Assembly: GCA_030378105.1 (NCBI GenBank)
Contig: JAUCGL010000033.1
Location: 1-36,215 of the forward strand
Direction of reading: 5' to 3'
DNA from: Candidatus Halobeggiatoa sp. HSG11
GTDB taxonomy: Bacteria; Pseudomonadota; Gammaproteobacteria; Beggiatoales; Beggiatoaceae
DNA: 36,215 nt
Part shown: piece after piece, positions 26,956 to 35,738 of the stretch
How the letters are laid out: each line of letters opens with the position of its first letter
How positions within the stretch are numbered: position 1 is the first letter of the stretch
Program-made: the position numbers and the translations under genes
The notes under the pieces: model-generated
Database searches by the model: none
Seen by the model: only the letters and a program-made list of their open reading frames with translations
What the model was told of the DNA's origin: nothing

Positions 26956-28815
26956 TTATGTTTTTTGTTTTTCATCCGGAAAACGTGGTTGCCATTGCCA
27001 ATTTGGAGCAACTTCTTTTGCTTGATTTAATAAAGCTTGGATATCTTTATTGTTTTTCAAAGCTTTAACTTCCCACAAACGATCTAATAATTGGGTAGCT
27101 AAATCATTTTTATCAATATTCAAAACAGCAGCAGCTTCATATAAAGCTTTTTTAACAAAATCAAGAGTTTCATCCTCCAACCACTCATAGTCATTTAATA
27201 ATGAATATACGGAAGTTGCGTTTAATTTCTTTTGTATCCAATCAAAATCTAGCAGTAATAATTTTAATTCATTCAAACGGTTGGCATGATGTAAATGCAT
27301 ACATAAATACTCAAAGAAATAACCATCATTTGGCCCACTTAACCAACCATGCTGGTCACATAAACGTCGATAAGCCGCCAGTAGATGAACATGGAGTTTT
27401 TCTATTTCGGATGTATCTGACAACAAATATTCATGTTGGAAGGAATGTAACTTCAAAGTTTTTTGATCTGTTTTTAATAAACTTTTATCTGCCAATTCTT
27501 TAATAAAATTATTAGCTTCTTCATTTGTTAATTGGTATAAATATCGCCATAATATCAAAACTACTGACTGTGGTATTTTAGAATAATCAGCAAACACTCC
27601 TAGTGCTAAGTAATAGTCAGCTGGCTCCCCTAAATCTTCAATATTAAGATGTAATGCCTGCATTAAAGACTGTGGGTACTTATCTGAAAATTCAAAATCA
27701 GCCTCTTCACCTAATCGTCCAATTAATTCAGACCATTCCGAAGTAGGTATATTGTGAGCTACATTAGCAACTAATTTCAAGGTTAAAGGCAAATAATCAC
27801 AGGCATGAACTAAATCTTCTAAATAAACTGGAACTTCTGTACTACCTTGTTTAGCAGATTTCATGAAAAAGTCAATGGACTGTTTCTCAGTTAATGGTGT
27901 CAAATCATGATTGGTAACATTACTGATAAAATATTGAATTATTTCTAACATATTGTTTTCACTAGTTGTAGCTAGTATTTGACTATGTTCAACGACAATA
28001 TTAAATGCCAAAATATCTTGAGAATCACATACATCATCTAAAATTATTAAACATGATTTAGTTTCGCATATTTTATTCAAATATTTAGTTGCTTCTTCAA
28101 TATCAAAAATATTTGGAACAGATTTATTTAGCTTTTTAAGGAGATTTATTTGTTGAGATAGTATATCTGCTTCATTACCTAAATTAATCCAAAAAATTCC
28201 ATCTGGGAATGTTAAACGTACTTCTTCATCGTGAGCTATAGCTGTTGCCATAACAGACTTACCAGCACCACTAGGAGCAGAAATAATTACCGATTTTTTT
28301 TGTCCATCAATAGGTTTGGCCAATAATTCTTTTTTAACTCTATTAAACAATAAAGAAGCTTTTATAATATCAGTTGATAGTTCAGTCACATCATGTAAAA
28401 CTGCTGGCTTAGTTTGTTTTTTAACTTCCCCTAACATACTTTTGTGAGTTTGTACTTCTTTTTCTAAGGTAGTAATAACATTTTGTAACATCAACTTACG
28501 CTTAACAACAACATCAGTCGCTTGATATTCGCGCATATCTTCCAGCATTTTATTTAATAATTCATAATGCTGTTTTATTAATGCCATATTTCCTGAAGAA
28601 GCTACTGTTTTAACCGGTTCTATAACTCCTCCTTTCTTCTTAAGTTGAGTAACAGTGCGTTCTAAGCTTTCTGCGAGCTGAATCACCTTAGCGATTTTAT
28701 CATATAATTCATTAAACTTAACTAAAGACACAAGGACAGCAGTTTTTTTCTCATTTTGGTCAACAACATACTGTGGTTGTAGTGCCTGCCTATCTAAAAG
28801 TTTTTTTAAGTCCAT
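26956..28815 (-). CDS. NB-ARC (Apaf-1-like) STAND NTPase without WD40 repeats
   Basis: A 619-residue signal-transduction ATPase of the type found in Apaf-1 and bacterial antiphage sensors. Residues 12-40 (QPQYVVDQNEKKTAVLVSL, then KFNELYD) resemble the start of Phd/YefM antitoxins. A coiled coil follows (about 40-135). NB-ARC: Walker A APSGAGKS (180-187), Walker B CLIILDDV (255-262), ILATTSENN (280-288) and YLPLTLKL (341-348, the GLPL position), then a winged helix with an MHD-like KLHSFQHEYL (455-464). The region about 490-560 matches the Apaf-1 helical domain (YLCMHLHHANRLNELKLLLL, DFDWIQKKLNAT, LLNDYEWL). The protein ends at WQWQPRFPDE, which in relatives is the linker to WD40 repeats; none follow, and repeat copy C lies just downstream. 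Confidence 0.85.
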   Translation of the reverse strand: MDLKKLLDRQALQPQYVVDQNEKKTAVLVSLVKFNELYDKIAKVIQLAESLERTVTQLKKKGGVIEPVKTVASSGNMALIKQHYELLNKMLEDMREYQATDVVVKRKLMLQNVITTLEKEVQTHKSMLGEVKKQTKPAVLHDVTELSTDIIKASLLFNRVKKELLAKPIDGQKKSVIISAPSGAGKSVMATAIAHDEEVRLTFPDGIFWINLGNEADILSQQINLLKKLNKSVPNIFDIEEATKYLNKICETKSCLIILDDVCDSQDILAFNIVVEHSQILATTSENNMLEIIQYFISNVTNHDLTPLTEKQSIDFFMKSAKQGSTEVPVYLEDLVHACDYLPLTLKLVANVAHNIPTSEWSELIGRLGEEADFEFSDKYPQSLMQALHLNIEDLGEPADYYLALGVFADYSKIPQSVVLILWRYLYQLTNEEANNFIKELADKSLLKTDQKTLKLHSFQHEYLLSDTSEIEKLHVHLLAAYRRLCDQHGWLSGPNDGYFFEYLCMHLHHANRLNELKLLLLDFDWIQKKLNATSVYSLLNDYEWLEDETLDFVKKALYEAAAVLNIDKNDLATQLLDRLWEVKALKNNKDIQALLNQAKEVAPNWQWQPRFPDEKQKT

Positions 28816-29116: not shown

Positions 29117-32100
29117 TTAATTTTCTTCCTCTTTCAAACCAAAGAAGTTTTCAATCTTATTTAAAAATCGTTTATAAACTGCTTCTCTTTCAGTTTCAAC
29201 ATTATGCTGTACATGCATTTGAGAACGAGTCAACATTTGTCGTTGAGTCAAAACTCTACTAACCATTTTTGATACCTCTGGTTGTTCTGCAATTAAAGGT
29301 TTAATATCCGCTTTTGTCAACTCAAATACATCAGTATCAACTAATGCAATAACAGTAGCAGTCCGGCTTTCCCCAGTTAATAATGCCATTTCCCCAAAGA
29401 AATCACCAGCACCTAATCGTGCTACTTCCTTGGTTCTACCATCATCAGTTTGTACTTGTACTCCAACCACACCTTCAACAACAATAAACAGTGAATCTCC
29501 TTCATCTCCTTGTTTAACAATGACATCTCCCTGACTAAAATGATAACGCTTAATACTTTCACTAAGAAAAGTTTTAGCTTCCATTGAGAAATGTTTAAAT
29601 ATATCAACTTCTTGTAATAAAGTAATCGGTTTAGTGGCTTCCTTACCACCTCTTTCTTTGATTCCTTTAAACATATAAATTTCTTGCCGTTGTACTGCTG
29701 GAGTAATACCGGCTCGATTAAGATGGAACCAAACTCTGGTCCAAACATCCTCTAAAATAAAGTTTTTATCAGCATAATCATCAGCACAAAATGCTATCCA
29801 ATAACTGGCTGCCCATTCATTAATACCAGTAAACAAGACTACCGGAGCTGGTTCTTTCAGTACTTTATCAGCAGACAATAGTGCATCTAATAATATTTTC
29901 CTAACTCTAGTTGGTGGGTGCATTGGATGTACATATACTGTAGGCCATAACCAATAAACATCATCTGGAAAGCAAAAGTTTAAAATTGCAGATTCAGAAG
30001 CCATACTATTAGGGATACTTAAAATACATTCAGCTCTGGTTTTAATCCTTGTAGTACGCCAAGTTATATCAATAATTTCTCCTTCATCATACTCACCAAT
30101 CTTAACCCAATCTCCAATTCTAAATGGTCTTTCTATATTAATTGCAATCCCAGAAAAAATGTTAGAAATGTTAATCTGAATCGCCAAACCAATAATCATA
30201 GCAATAACACCAGAAGTGGCAAGAATACTGGTTAATTGTTGATCGTAAACAAAAGCTACAATTCCAACTACTGAGAAGAAATAAATCAGAAAAGCCAAAA
30301 ATATTCGCACTACATTTGGAATTAAACGGCCTGATCTTTCTTCTAATGGGGTCCAAATAAAACTCTCTGAAGCAAGGTTAACCATAAAAGCTGGAGTCAA
30401 CCACCATAGAATGTCAAATACCCTGATAATAAATTCCATTTTATAAGTTTCGATATTTTCCATATTGACAAAAACCACTTCTCCAGATAGCAATAGTAAA
30501 AATGCCAAAACTGTTTGGAAAAACCAAATTAATTTGGATAGACTACGAAATTTTTTGGTAGCAAGGTTAAGCAATAAAATGAAAATACCACTTAATACAA
30601 TGATATTTTGAGCATAATTATAAGGTAATTTACCACGCAAGGTAAATTCATTCTTTTTAATTAAAATGGTAGCACTAAACCTAGAATAATCTATAGTTCC
30701 ACCTTGTACATTAAGATATTCTGGGTCTCCTAAGGAAAACTTTTTAGCTACGTCTTGGAAAAATCTAACTTGTTCTGCACTCCAACCACTAGCCGGACTT
30801 AGAACTTGATCATCTTGTAATTTTTTCAGTACTGTATTAGCTTTACCCATACCCAGCACATCAGTAACATAAATTAAGTTATTTCTTGTGAGCTTTTTAT
30901 GATGAAAGCTAACTCCAATAATATGTTGTTTATATGCAAAATTACTTTCTAAAAAATCTGCTTTAAATTTACCCCTAATTTTATACACACTATAAGTTAT
31001 TTGGTCTTTAGTTTTTGGTCCTTCAATCGGATTTTCTAATTGAATTTCTAGCTCTTTAGGATTGATTGCATTTAAAAATTCAATCTGCTGAGGTTTAAAT
31101 TTACCTTGTGAACGAAACCATAGATGAAAATCCAACATTACAGTCAAATTTTTGAAATCAGGTTCACTTATTTCATTTATTTTAATACCCGTATAAACTA
31201 CATTAGTTTTATACATGTGCTTATTACCAATCATTAATACTCGTTCGTTTTTCTTAGCTTCTTCTATATCAGAAATTTCATTGAGATTACGAATAACTTG
31301 AAATTGAGTTAAAGCAGAAACGATGTTTTTATTTTTATAAACACCAATGGCTACTGGTTTTTGAGCATCACGATTATCATCAAAATAATTAAATCCAGTC
31401 GTACCCTCTATAGCTTGATTAATATCGTTAAAACTGGCCAAAGCATCACGCAATTTGGCTCGATCTTCTTTAAGTTTTTCTTGGTTACCATCAACTTCTG
31501 CCTCTATGATAGCTTTCACAAGGACCATCATAGTGTCATAAGCATAAGCTGCTGACCAATCCATTTCTTCAGTACTTGGATATTTTGCTTTATACTGTTC
31601 TTGAAATTTTTGAGCTGTTTGATTCGCAGTATCAAATATCAAAGGAGTAGCAACATAAATATCATTAGTGTAATGGCCGGGATTAATTCTTTCTTGAGGA
31701 AATTTATCAAATCCATCTTTAAAAGCTTGTTCAGAAAAACTAGAACCACCTAAAATAGCATTTGGTATGTTTTCATCTTTGATTTGCTTGACTATTTTAA
31801 CTGCATCAGTGGCTTGAACTGCTACTAAAATAGCTCCAGCTTGTTTTTGATTTTGTTTTATCTGTTGAACAATTTTTTTAATTTCTTGTTCTTTATTATC
31901 ATCTTCTTTGAATTTATAATTGATAGCTTTCATACCTAATTCATCACCGGCATTCTTAAACATTTCTGCCAAATAAGAACCGTATCCACTACTATCATCA
32001 ATAATAGTTACCTGATTAAGTTTAAATACTTGTTTAACATAATTGGCCAAAAATTGACCAGAAGCACTACCTTTATAAATATTTCTAAAATACCATTCAT

Positions 32101-32518
32101 TATCTTGAGTTACCTTAACGCTAACAGAACCTGGAGTGATAGCTGGAATTCCATATTTTTTATATACTTGCCCACCAGTTATAGAGCAGCCACTATACCA
32201 ATGTCCAATAACTGCAAGAGCTTTATTTTCTTCAACTATTCTACGAGCTTCATTATGAGCTGTTCCATCTGTTTTACAATCATTTTTATCATCAAATTCT
32301 AATAGTTTTAACTTTTTATTATTAGGCAGTATTTTCTTTTCATTAGCTTGTTCTATATATAATTTAATAGCATTAGTCATAGTTTTTCCTGCACCTTTTT
32401 CCATAGGACCAGCAAAAGCTACATATATAGTCTCTCCATCTTCTGTGATAATATTTTGAGAGAACCACAGAACAACAAATAGGGCAATAGTAACTATTAA
32501 AAAAATATTAACTTTCAT
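29117..32518 (-). CDS. Receptor-channel: LivJ-type binding domain + pLGIC-like domain + MscS channel + cNMP-binding domain
   Basis: 1133 residues. A signal/anchor helix (about 3-20) precedes a type-1 periplasmic binding fold (about 30-390: [45 protein letters not shown]), the fold of LivJ and of glutamate-receptor N-terminal domains. Residues ~400-560 form a second beta-rich domain with NVVYTGIKI, LDFHLWFRSQGKF and YKIRGKFKADF; its spacing resembles the receptor domain of pentameric ligand-gated channels (inference). Four helices (about 640-765) lead to the MscS pore helix ([20 protein letters not shown]) and beta domain (RPFRIGDWVKIGEYDEGEI, SIPNSMASESAILNF). The C-terminus (about 985-1095) is a cyclic-nucleotide-binding domain with FGEMALLTGESRTATV, including the phosphate-binding Arg. 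It lies 133 bases downstream of its paralogue. The ligand is unknown. Confidence 0.85.
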   Translation of the reverse strand: MKVNIFLIVTIALFVVLWFSQNIITEDGETIYVAFAGPMEKGAGKTMTNAIKLYIEQANEKKILPNNKKLKLLEFDDKNDCKTDGTAHNEARRIVEENKALAVIGHWYSGCSITGGQVYKKYGIPAITPGSVSVKVTQDNEWYFRNIYKGSASGQFLANYVKQVFKLNQVTIIDDSSGYGSYLAEMFKNAGDELGMKAINYKFKEDDNKEQEIKKIVQQIKQNQKQAGAILVAVQATDAVKIVKQIKDENIPNAILGGSSFSEQAFKDGFDKFPQERINPGHYTNDIYVATPLIFDTANQTAQKFQEQYKAKYPSTEEMDWSAAYAYDTMMVLVKAIIEAEVDGNQEKLKEDRAKLRDALASFNDINQAIEGTTGFNYFDDNRDAQKPVAIGVYKNKNIVSALTQFQVIRNLNEISDIEEAKKNERVLMIGNKHMYKTNVVYTGIKINEISEPDFKNLTVMLDFHLWFRSQGKFKPQQIEFLNAINPKELEIQLENPIEGPKTKDQITYSVYKIRGKFKADFLESNFAYKQHIIGVSFHHKKLTRNNLIYVTDVLGMGKANTVLKKLQDDQVLSPASGWSAEQVRFFQDVAKKFSLGDPEYLNVQGGTIDYSRFSATILIKKNEFTLRGKLPYNYAQNIIVLSGIFILLLNLATKKFRSLSKLIWFFQTVLAFLLLLSGEVVFVNMENIETYKMEFIIRVFDILWWLTPAFMVNLASESFIWTPLEERSGRLIPNVVRIFLAFLIYFFSVVGIVAFVYDQQLTSILATSGVIAMIIGLAIQINISNIFSGIAINIERPFRIGDWVKIGEYDEGEIIDITWRTTRIKTRAECILSIPNSMASESAILNFCFPDDVYWLWPTVYVHPMHPPTRVRKILLDALLSADKVLKEPAPVVLFTGINEWAASYWIAFCADDYADKNFILEDVWTRVWFHLNRAGITPAVQRQEIYMFKGIKERGGKEATKPITLLQEVDIFKHFSMEAKTFLSESIKRYHFSQGDVIVKQGDEGDSLFIVVEGVVGVQVQTDDGRTKEVARLGAGDFFGEMALLTGESRTATVIALVDTDVFELTKADIKPLIAEQPEVSKMVSRVLTQRQMLTRSQMHVQHNVETEREAVYKRFLNKIENFFGLKEEEN

Positions 32519-32651
32519 GTTTTATTTACTCTAAAAATAATTCTTGATATTAACAGATAATTTATGTTTTTTTCTATTTTAACAATTGGCTGTTATTTTT
32601 ATTACAAAATGGTAATTAACCAATTTCCTTTTCTTAATAAATTATTTAAGA

Positions 32652-35600
32652 TTAACCACCAACACCAGGTCTACGTTTTCCTTGATCAGGTAACTGTATA
32701 TCAACTTCACTAACAACAGGAATTTTACTATTACCTTTGAACATATGTACTTCTTGCCTCATGACTCCCGGTTCAATATTAGCATCATCCAAATGGTTCC
32801 AGACTTTACTCCAAACATCTTCCAAAATAAAATGTTTATCAGCATAACCATCTGCACAAAATGCAATCCAATACATAGCTGCCCATTCATTAATACCAAC
32901 AAACATAACTACTGGTTCCGGTTTTTGCAAAATTCTTTCTGAATTTAACAGTGCATCCAATAGTATTTTTTTGACTTTTTCTGGATGATGACGAGGGTGA
33001 ATATACACCGTAGGCCATAACCAATATAATTCATCTGGATAATGAAAATTAAGAATAACGGATTCTGAGGCTATACTATTTGGAATACTTAAGGTACACC
33101 CAGCTCTAGTCCTTATTCTTGTTGCTCGCCAATTAATATCTACTACTTCACCTTCTTCAAGCCCAGATATTTGTACCCAATCACTAAGTCGAAATGGACG
33201 TTCCATATTAATAACTATGCCAGAAAACACATTAGAAATATTAACTTGGATTGCTAAACCTATAATCATGGCTAACATACCCGATGCAGCTAATAACGAA
33301 GTAAATTCTTGCTCATAAACAAAAACGACAATACAAGTAACTGCCATTATATAAACTGCCATTGCAAAAAAATTGCGGATGATATTTGGAATTGCTCCAA
33401 CTTTTTCTTCCAAAGGTGACCAGATAAAACGTTCTGCTGCCACATTAATTAAAGCGGCTGGTATTATCCACCATAATATGCCAAAAACTCTGACAATAAG
33501 TTGCATTTGATGAATATTACTACTTTCTGATAACCAATCTGAAAATATAATGACTTCTACCGACAATAAAAATATAAAAGCTAAGATAACTTGAAAAAAC
33601 CAAACAACCTGAGAAAATTTTTGTCTTTTATTGGTGACAATTGCTAATACTATAAATAATATTCCACTTATGATTGCCAAATGATAAGCAAATTTATAGG
33701 GAACCATACCGCGTGGAGTAAATTGTCCCTGTTTAATTTGAACAACCGCATTAAAACGAGAATACTCAATCATGCCATCTGAGGAATTGAGATGATCTGG
33801 ATCACCACCAGAAAATTCTTTAGTTATTTGGGAAACAAACCAAGCTCTAGTCATTAACCAACCAGTAATTGGATTAATAACCTTATTTTTGGTTAAACGT
33901 TGAATTAATTCTTTCTCATTAGTTAACCCCATTCCTAATACATCGGTAACATACACCAAATTATTACGAGTTAAAGAATGATGTCGGAAACTAATCCCCA
34001 AAATATGCTGTCTAAATAAATAATAATCTGAAATAAAATCAGTCTTGAATTTAGCTTTAATTCGATAAACTTTATAAGTAATTTTGTTTTTATCTTTACT
34101 TTCAATTGGATTTTTTAGTTGCTCGGCAATTCTATCCGGCTCAATTGTATTGGAAAATTCTATATCTTCTGGATTGAAATCACCTTGAAATCGAAACCAT
34201 AATTTAAATTCTAAAGTAACTAACAAATTTTTAACATCTATATCAGTTATATTAAAAAAATCTATTCCAGTATAAACCACGTTAGTTTTATACATGTATT
34301 TACCATCAATAAGCAATACACGTTCCTCTTTACGAGCAAGTTTTATATCAGTTATTTCGTTAAGACTACGTACAGGCTGTAATTGGGTTAATGCAGAAAC
34401 TGATCTTTTATTTTTATATACTCCTAATGATACTGGTTTTTGAGCATCTCTCTGTTCATCAAAATAATTCAAGCCAGTTATTCCTTTAATCCCTGCATAA
34501 ACATCATTAAAACTAGCCAAGGTATCTCTTACTTTCTGACGTTCTTCACCAATAGTTTGTTCAATATAACCAATTTCCGCTTTTTTAATAGCTTCAACAA
34601 CTACCATAGCAGAATCATAAGCATAAGCAGCTGACCAATCTGCTTCTTCTTGATATTTGGTTTGATAATCTTCTTTAAACTTTTGAGCTTTTTCGTTAGC
34701 AGTATCAAAGATTAAGGGTGTTGCTACATAAATGTCATTAATATAAAAACCGGGATATTCTTTTTCAATTGGAAAATCATTAAAACCGTCTCGGAATGTT
34801 TTTTCAGATAAAGAAGAAGCTCCCACAATTGTATTACGAATATCAGCATCTTTAATTAATTTAACTAGTTGTACTCCCTCAGTTGCTTGCACTGCTAATA
34901 AAATAACTCCAGCGTCTTTACGGTTAGCTTTCAATTCGGCAACAATTTTTTTAAACTTATCGGATAAATTTTTATCGTTATTATCGTATTGCCAATCATT
35001 TTTTATCGTCATACCTAATTTATGTGATTCTTGTTCAAAAATTTCGGCTAGATAAGAACCGTAAGCAGCTTTTTCACGAATAATAGTGACATTATTTTGA
35101 CGAAATACATTTTTAACATAATTGGCTAAAAATTTACCAGAGGCGGTGGCATTGTAAATATTTCTAAAATACCATTCGTTATCTTTGGTAACTGCTAAAC
35201 TGGCTGAACCGGGAGTGATAGCTGGAATTTTATGTTGCTTATATACTGCTCCGGCACTTATAGAAGCAGAACTATACCAATGTCCGATAACTGCTACCGC
35301 TTTATTTTGTTCTATTATTTTAAAAGCTTGCTCTTTAGCAACTTTAGCATCATTTTTATCATCAAAAGTATCTAATACAATTTTTTTACCATTTATGCCA
35401 CCTTTTTGATTAATTTCATCAAAGTACAATTGAATAGCTTGAATCATCAATTGACCGGCAGCAGCACATGATTCCCAGTCAAATCCCATATCTGAACTGT
35501 TATAACCAATTTTCTTAACTGTTTCGCGTACAACATGTTCTACATCAAGATTGGCATTGGTAGTTATTTCACCAGCTACTACAACCATACCAGTTTTTAT

Positions 35601-35738
35601 CATGGTTTCACAAGCAACTCGTGATTTGATATCTTGAGTTAATAAAGCATCTAAAATGGCATCAGAAATTTGATCTGCCACTTTATCAGGATGACCTTCG
35701 GAAACAGATTCAGAAGTAAAAAGTAACTTTTCAGACAT
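32652..35738 (-). CDS. MetK N-terminus fused to a second LivJ/pLGIC-like/MscS receptor-channel
   Basis: 1028 residues in one open frame. Residues 1-92 are the start of S-adenosylmethionine synthetase. From about 93 ([20 protein letters not shown]) the sequence becomes the paralogue of the gene at 29117: binding domain (to ~450), pLGIC-like beta domain (~455-600, [31 protein letters not shown]), helices (~684-702, 711-732, 746-768, 788-807), MscS pore helix (813-842) and beta domain (~845-900). It ends at about residue 1028 with no cyclic-nucleotide domain. The channel part lacks the ~42 residues holding the signal peptide and first strand of the binding fold, so the receptor domain could not be exported normally. 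The ribosome site AAGAGGA belongs to metK. It is either a genuine deletion fusion or an assembly chimera; the protein is probably non-functional as a channel. Confidence 0.8.
35460..35738 (-). pseudogene. metK: metK, first ~92 codons only
   Basis: Residues 1-92 match the N-terminal domain of S-adenosylmethionine synthetase: [20 protein letters not shown] (ATP/Met-binding His and Asp), [28 protein letters not shown] and [16 protein letters not shown] complete MetK is about 385 residues. The break comes after SCA, where the family continues with a -VL-IG-QSPDI- type stretch. The catalytic loops and remaining two domains are absent. MetK is normally essential, so a complete copy is expected elsewhere. 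Confidence 0.9.

Follow-up and report, generated by a model that had tools for sequence, protein, structure and literature searches.

One complete contig (C222; GenBank JAUCGL010000033.1) of the 5.2 Mb, 326-contig genome of Candidatus Halobeggiatoa sp. HSG11 was analysed over its whole length of 36,215 nucleotides, hereafter called the window. It contains two adjacent genes, named gene A and gene B below, each of which is predicted to join a type-1 periplasmic binding domain (PBP), a Cys-loop-type ligand-binding ectodomain and an MscS pore in one chain; gene A carries a cyclic-nucleotide-binding (CNB) domain behind the pore. From comparisons of sequences and models, we hold the homology of each predicted domain and this architecture to be almost certain. 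Judged by the same kinds of comparison, the channel is probably gated or modulated chemically through its ectodomain. A wider proposal, for which the chances seem to us about evenly balanced, is that A and B may stem from a natural receptor transplant, in which a Cys-loop ectodomain together with its PBP co-sensor would have been transferred from a Cys-loop pore, which is five-fold, to an MscS pore. The result would be a distinct class of ligand-gated channel, with gene A also under the control of cyclic nucleotides and with A and B possibly combined in a heteromer.

Results

Receptor and channel domains in one chain

A preliminary description of the window had proposed two adjacent paralogous genes, each encoding a LivJ-type binding domain, a second extracytoplasmic beta domain and an MscS pore in a single chain. 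The two genes were confirmed as paralogues, and all three parts were recovered, the first and the last by Pfam and the second beta domain in an AlphaFold2 model of gene A (mean pLDDT 86.5, pTM 0.65), where it spans roughly residues 427-622. The CNB domain of gene A and a MetK head on gene B are additional to that description. In gene B the order in Pfam was S-AdoMet_synt_N (residues 5-97), Peripla_BP_6 (92-437), an unmatched middle region and the MscS beta domain (834-899).

Profile searches with gene A found both the type-1 PBP fold and the MscS fold that had been expected. Peripla_BP_6 was matched with E 1.1e-31 in gene A (111.2 bits, cut-off 31.7) and with E 1.5e-38 in gene B. The PBP of gene A also matched LivJ/LivK chains in the PDB by sequence (4gnr, E 6.4e-14) and 3td9 by fold (Foldseek, target-normalised TM 0.88), and its fold relatives in the PDB bind amino acids or aromatic acids. 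When full-length gene A was submitted to Foldseek, all 50 of the matches listed were of the type-1 PBP fold, from bacterial binding proteins or from the ectodomains of class C receptors. As this search was uninformative on the other domains, a separate prediction and search were made for the ectodomain.

Identity of the middle domain

Residues 402-651 of gene A were compared with the open frames in the neighbourhood of the genome's other PBP and MscS places. They matched the MscS-type paralogues and, in addition, all eight of the PBP proteins of the same genome that have no MscS domain (69 to 151 bits). Seven of these eight have a four-helix membrane part of the Cys-loop type, and the remaining one (L047) ends at a contig end. 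Pfam gave weak matches to Neur_chan_LBD or Neur_chan_memb in five of the eight proteins, and L046 alone rose above the cut-off (Neur_chan_memb, 28.7 vs 28.1 bits). A profile made from their middle and membrane parts found GLIC end to end with E 2.3e-24. These proteins are PBP-fused pentameric ligand-gated ion channels (pLGICs), an architecture that Tasneem et al. (2004, PMC549065) reported from two alphaproteobacteria. The genome holds 15 receptor-headed genes among 21 Peripla_BP_6 places: seven of MscS type, seven of Cys-loop type and one ending before the pore.

Comparison of a profile of 51 MscS-type middle domains with the pLGIC-type profile gave an hhalign probability of 100 and E 1.6e-53 over 209 columns. 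The isolated ectodomain was modelled by AlphaFold2 with pLDDT 92.0, and all 50 of the Foldseek matches listed for it were AChBP, ELIC or alpha9 nicotinic ectodomain (best E 8.8e-9). With VIA-align, the ectodomain was superposed on a GABA-A receptor subunit with Z 15.0 and rmsd 3.1 over 164 residues, tied with ELIC (14.9) and sTeLIC (14.8). The profile-profile match and the predicted fold together indicate that the middle domain is a Cys-loop-type ligand-binding ectodomain. Neither A nor B has a match to the four-helix membrane family Neur_chan_memb (M1-M4) at E up to 1, the pore being MscS instead.

Two of the pLGIC-type proteins (L044 6297-9863 and L050 2019-5585) carry an unrelated SBP_bac_1 domain after the channel helices, so that a pentameric channel stands between two different periplasmic binding folds. 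Another gene (L055 2531-6487) encodes a PBP-fold protein (ANF_receptor) in which many thrombospondin type 3 repeats follow in a long array.

Pore, topology and conservation

The MscS beta domain (PF00924, cut-off 20.2) was matched almost equally in gene A (E 1.3e-16, 60.8 bits) and gene B (E 2e-16, 60.3 bits). The vestibule family PF21082 scored 20.6 bits in A and 20.3 bits in B, slightly below its cut-off of 21, and 41 bits in a paralogue (L012). In a phmmer search against PDB chains, gene A matched YnaI with E 4.8e-14, in an alignment spanning residues 671-845, and MscS with E 2e-13. The Pfam matches, the YnaI and MscS chains and the LivJ/LivK chains thus bear out that a LivJ-type domain is paired with a pore of the MscS superfamily, to which A and B belong by this pore.

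Between the ectodomain and the MscS beta domain, five helices were modelled (633-656, 658-684, 691-729, 735-757 and 762-796), of which 691-729 falls below the hydropathy threshold used. Because this number is odd, the membrane is predicted to separate the ectodomain and PBP from the MscS cage and the CNB domain. The binding domain would be outside if the cage is inside, in line with the topology on which the preliminary description had depended.

Conservation was measured over 63 aligned proteins, gene A included. The pore-helix columns G770, M774, G777, L778, Q781 and N786 are kept in at least 57 of them, and both A and B retain the family consensus of this helix. L778 and M774 of gene A presumably align with the pair of hydrophobic leucines that form the gate in E. 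coli MscS. Mean pairwise identity was highest in the pore helix (70.9%), followed by the CNB domain where present (57.4%), the whole MscS part (42.5%), the ectodomain (41.5%) and the PBP (37.8%), so that the ectodomain is about as conserved as the MscS part.

Four small MscS genes of 316-386 aa stand in tandem on another contig of the genome (C260; L167 13410-17568) and have no outer domains. They are strong matches (176 to 294 bits) to the MscS part of gene A, and their pore helices, inspected by eye, are without the usual consensus. Judging from the sequences, they could possibly be regulatory or non-conducting subunits.

Table 1. Genes A and B and the parts recognized in them, with positions in the window
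Feature	Position	Strand	Basis
Gene A, 1133 aa: PBP, Cys-loop-type ectodomain, MscS pore, CNB domain	29117..32518	-	ORF, Pfam, model
Gene A residues 1-26: N-terminal hydrophobic helix (signal anchor or signal peptide)	32441..32518	-	hydropathy; model helix 2-24
Gene A residues 34-395: type-1 PBP (Peripla_BP_6, LivJ/LivK-like)	31334..32419	-	Pfam, PDB sequence, fold
Gene A residues 427-622: predicted Cys-loop/pLGIC-type ligand-binding ectodomain, no Pfam match of its own	30653..31240	-	paralogue matches, profile-profile, fold
Gene A residues 527-532 (FAYKQH): site of pro-loop motif YPxDxQ, lost here	30923..30940	-	alignment
Gene A K622: site of pLGIC pre-M1 arginine, replaced here	30653..30655	-	alignment
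Gene A residues 633-796: five predicted membrane helices, the last (762-796) being the MscS pore helix	30131..30622	-	model, YnaI alignment
Gene A residues 784-848: MscS cytoplasmic beta domain (PF00924)	29975..30169	-	Pfam
Gene A residues 869-938: MscS C-terminal (vestibule) domain PF21082, below cut-off	29705..29914	-	Pfam
Gene A residues 993-1078: CNB domain with motif FGEMALLTGESRTA	29285..29542	-	Pfam, motif
Gene B, 1028 aa: paralogue of gene A without CNB domain, 5' end chimeric	32652..35738	-	ORF, Pfam
MetK N-terminal part, about 93 codons, fused to gene B: chimeric junction	35460..35738	-	Pfam; relatives
Gene B PBP	34431..35465	-	Pfam
Gene B predicted Cys-loop-type ectodomain with linker	33624..34400	-
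Gene B MscS beta domain	33042..33239	-	Pfam

Distribution of the fusion

Relatives were scanned in one genome per species, with a profile covering the ectodomain and the membrane helices. At least 122 relatives were found, and 76 loci from 56 assemblies were kept, in which the presence of each part was called with profiles built from proteins of the Halobeggiatoa genome. PBP, ectodomain and MscS part stood in a single open frame in 73 of the 76 loci; the exceptions were L117 and L126, in which no MscS part was found in frame, and L083, in which the PBP part was missing. The join between ectodomain and pore was selected by the query, while the PBP, which was not part of it, was present in 75 loci. 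A LivJ-type protein is a separate soluble protein that delivers to an ABC transporter, and this feature was not found here: the PBP lies in one chain with a channel in A, in B and in those 73 loci.

Grouped by record titles, the loci belonged to Gammaproteobacteria (37), Alphaproteobacteria (15), Desulfobacterota (10), Magnetococcales (7), Betaproteobacteria (3), records titled 'Deltaproteobacteria' (2), SAR324 (1) and Campylobacterota (1). The fusion recurs, in other words, throughout Proteobacteria taken broadly. The nearest named relatives in the protein scan were Thioploca metagenome-assembled genomes (89-90% identity for a 390-residue query). In the taxonomic order of the window, the ectodomain occurred on either pore type in 30 of 42 genomes, that of the window included. 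A genome assembled as one contig (G039, 4.81 Mb) has two such genes arranged like B and A and, besides these, another copy of MscS type.

Large or filamentous sulfur bacteria and a cable bacterium are among the matches L058-L133. Magnetococcales, Magnetospirillum and Desulfamplus, also among these matches, are presumably magnetotactic, and we take the matched groups to be dwellers in chemical gradients, with a sampling bias possible.

In the plasmid collection, an Azospirillum query matched 12 records. Nine of them, all from Azospirillum, matched at least 80% of the query, and three Rhizobium plasmid records were matched at the MscS end only. PBP, ectodomain and MscS part were in one frame in all three Azospirillum records examined, namely A. 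brasilense Sp 7 and MTCC4038, in which the gene is placed alike, and Azospirillum sp. B510; the records of Sp 7 and B510 are circular. The B510 homologue is annotated as 'ABC transporter substrate-binding protein', an example of how readily the family is hidden by annotation; the ectodomain would escape annotation because it has no Pfam or PDB sequence match of its own. On plasmid pAB510b of Azospirillum sp. B510 (L169 2777-9290), the homologue directly precedes a type I secretion set (ABC/HlyD/TolC) and has a VCBS-domain protein as a neighbour.

No described fusion of MscS with a Cys-loop domain or with a PBP was found in open-access papers, searched by title and abstract. A passage of PMC4560390 mentions 'ligand binding domains' in some MscS subfamilies and does not name their kinds. 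A prior mention of a PBP-MscS protein may exist in the literature.

Residues at the junction and pore type

The junction between ectodomain and pore was aligned in 117 proteins with a sufficiently long PBP and ectodomain, 23 of them pLGIC-type and 91 MscS-type; three without a classifiable pore were excluded from the counts. All 23 pLGIC-type proteins have the proline, the acidic residue (D) and the glutamine of the pro-loop and the arginine before M1, vs 10, 4, 9 and 2, respectively, of the 91 MscS-type proteins. As the aligned rows are related, these counts do not represent independent events. The pro-loop acidic residue and the pre-M1 arginine are missing in both A and B. According to PMC549065, the charge interaction between the pro-loop acid and the basic residue before the membrane appears universal and might act in gating. 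Residues of the junction in Cys-loop channels were thus lost where the pore differs.

A tree was made from the PBP and ectodomain of 98 of the 117 rows (those less than 80% identical to one already included) by a quick method and left unrooted. Pore type requires one change on this tree, and three long-branched MscS-type rows (L010, L112 and L133) fall on the pLGIC side of the starred branch. Because the tree is quick and unrooted and contains these stray rows, the direction of the swap, from a Cys-loop pore to an MscS pore, is something that we infer.

Cyclic-nucleotide-binding domain

The cNMP_binding family (PF00027) was matched in gene A with E 1.6e-25 (89.3 bits, cut-off 27.5), and Pfam found no such domain in gene B. 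The motif FGEMALLTGESRTA of gene A, which we take to be the cyclic-nucleotide motif, is intact there and in 27 of the 29 CNB-bearing relatives. A CNB domain was present in 29 of the 76 loci. Of the 47 in which none was seen, L077 and L126 end at a contig end and L117 is the locus mentioned above without an MscS part in frame. The class III cyclase family PF00211 was found at 26 places in the genome, two of which are short fragments.

Discussion

Proposed working of the channel

The receptor module, PBP plus ectodomain, is shared with prokaryotic PBP-fused pentameric channels and was probably taken over from them. The preliminary description had suggested that genes A and B would be a separate evolutionary route to a ligand-gated channel. 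In that wording the view is not supported, since the receptor half is common to the PBP-fused pentameric channels and the pore alone differs. Chemical gating, on the other hand, is better supported than could be known from that description, because the second domain is a Cys-loop ectodomain and belongs to a module shared with Cys-loop channels of the same genome.

We propose that the PBP domain would close on a small molecule in the periplasm. Once closed, it would alter the packing of the ectodomain ring and pull the first membrane helix, which in turn would open the MscS gate or sensitise it to tension. A-type subunits would add control by cAMP or cGMP from inside, so that the channel might integrate membrane tension, an outside ligand and, in the A type, inside cAMP/cGMP.

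Several points weigh against the transplant of a working receptor. The symmetries clash, because Cys-loop heads are pentamers and the known bacterial MscS pores are heptamers; if the transplant took place, either the ectodomain ring or the MscS pore would have a new symmetry. Loss of the pro-loop residues and the pre-M1 arginine could equally mean that the ectodomain gates nothing now. No specific ligand could be assigned from the pocket residues of the PBP in alignments to LivJ/LivK and a GABA-binding protein. As for the ectodomain itself, none of the 51 MscS-type domains scanned on their own against Pfam had a Neur_chan match, a sequence search of PDB chains up to E 10 was also negative, and the Foldseek TM-scores of the ectodomain model were moderate (0.41-0.50 by query). 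Of the eight intermediates, one exceeded a Neur_chan cut-off and three were without any Neur_chan match at E 0.01. As there is no direct sequence match, homology to Cys-loop receptors rests on the intermediate pLGIC-type paralogues, the profile-profile comparison and the fold.

Alternative explanations

The main alternative, which we consider unlikely, is that the PBP and Cys-loop-type domains form a passive periplasmic collar or anchor and that the pore is gated by tension only. It would agree with the tension gating of E. coli MscS (PMC4560390), with the loss of junction residues in nearly all MscS-type members and with the conservation of the pore helix, the highest of the chain. A collar would have no obvious need for a binding-protein fold, yet this fold is kept in all loci but one. 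Moreover, both outer domains are full-length and confidently modelled, the ectodomain is as conserved as the MscS part, and the same two-domain module heads the ligand-gated-channel relatives in this genome.

We regard it as rather improbable that the cytoplasmic CNB domain is the real control of the gate, as in bCNG channels, with the outer domains serving to localise the protein or tune its sensitivity. The bCNG channels are an experimentally described MscS subfamily, to judge from reference titles in PMC4560390, and such control would suit both the intact motif in gene A and nearly all of its CNB-bearing relatives and the many cyclase places of the genome. Gene B, however, has both outer domains and no CNB domain, and most of the loci are likewise without a visible one.

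It is very improbable that the ectodomain is a ligand-triggered scaffold signalling through a partner on a pore that no longer conducts: the four tandem MscS-only genes with a degenerate pore helix indicate that non-conducting members may exist, but A and B keep the pore-helix consensus, and no candidate partner gene beside the pair is common to more than 3 of 15 loci. A chimeric assembly, a reading suggested by the chimeric join between MetK and gene B that this contig does contain, is refuted for the fusion of receptor and pore by its presence in 73 of 76 loci (56 assemblies), in a one-contig genome and on circular Azospirillum plasmids, so that the architecture is no artefact of this assembly.

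Comparison with known channels

The closest counterparts on the pore side are MscS and YnaI, which have the pore helix, the cytoplasmic beta domain and the YnaI-like membrane part in common with A and B; they differ in that the pore of A and B is preceded by a receptor-type ectodomain of about 600 residues and that of A is followed by a CNB domain. In bCNG channels a CNB domain follows the MscS pore, as in gene A and not in gene B, and we know of none with a PBP or Cys-loop-type ectodomain such as gene A has. Laboratory chimeras, in which one Cys-loop ectodomain is placed on another Cys-loop pore, are a known tool; no natural case of a Cys-loop ectodomain on the pore of another superfamily was found in open-access papers. 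By their ectodomain A and B are related to Cys-loop receptors, but two defining features of these, the pore and the junction residues, are absent.

The pore of ionotropic glutamate receptors is K-channel-like. These receptors offer an analogy to A and B in having tandem extracellular binding folds on a channel, the outer one PBP-I-like, but their second domain is a PBP-II fold into which the pore is inserted (PMC549065). DeCLIC, a bacterial Cys-loop channel, has extra N-terminal domains beside the ectodomain as A and B do; according to PMC9897478 these are jelly-roll lobes on a Cys-loop pore, whereas A and B have a PBP and an MscS pore. The prokaryotic PBP-fused pentameric channels described in PMC549065 have, like A and B, a PBP-I followed by a Cys-loop-type domain, and within this genome the two kinds are homologous along both. 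Their pore is a four-transmembrane Cys-loop pore with the pro-loop and pre-M1 arginine, whereas that of A and B is MscS and the residues are lost.

Taken from sequence comparison and models, these relations suggest that A/B-type proteins may form a class of channels under chemical control that has so far gone unrecognised. Gating of the MscS pore by the ectodomain, if it occurs, would mean that evolution can separate the head of a neurotransmitter-type receptor from its pore; it would also make MscS gating chemically addressable and raise the question of how a pentamer-forming head fits a heptamer-forming pore. The homologue in Azospirillum brasilense Sp7 makes the question of gating directly testable.

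The gene pair and its surroundings

A gene without a CNB domain is followed on the same strand by one with a CNB domain not only in the window and in the one-contig genome G039 but also in 13 of the 76 loci (L058, L059, L062-L071 and L085; the first gene of L063 is split over two frames). Many loci have short flanks, so this number is a lower bound. The tandem recurs in Beggiatoa/Thioploca-type bacteria. This pairing of the genes suggests, as a weaker point, that A and B may co-assemble as a heteromer. Beyond the pair, no neighbour was common to more than 3 of 15 loci when the open reading frames surrounding 14 loci and those of the right-hand 16 kb of the window were compared by blastp.

The MetK head of gene B was matched to S-AdoMet_synt_N with E 1.4e-41. 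This N-terminal part has a single copy in the genome, at the 5' end of gene B, and the MetK C-terminal domain is on another contig (C144:5156-5572; L043 615-1445), where the start of its frame is unlike MetK. In three of four genomes of the same genus, the start of MetK belongs to a full-length open frame (390-402 codons) on a contig separate from the channel genes; it had no match in the fourth, which is 87% complete. In six relatives compared, gene B has an ordinary hydrophobic N-terminus that continues into sequence resembling gene B after the junction. The head is chimeric and no part of the channel protein; it stems either from misassembly or from a rearrangement in the material sequenced.

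Gene A is followed directly, on its own strand (26956-28815, minus), by a gene for an NB-ARC protein with matches to APAF1_C and to an APAF-1-like winged helix, an apoptosis-type STAND protein in a bacterium.

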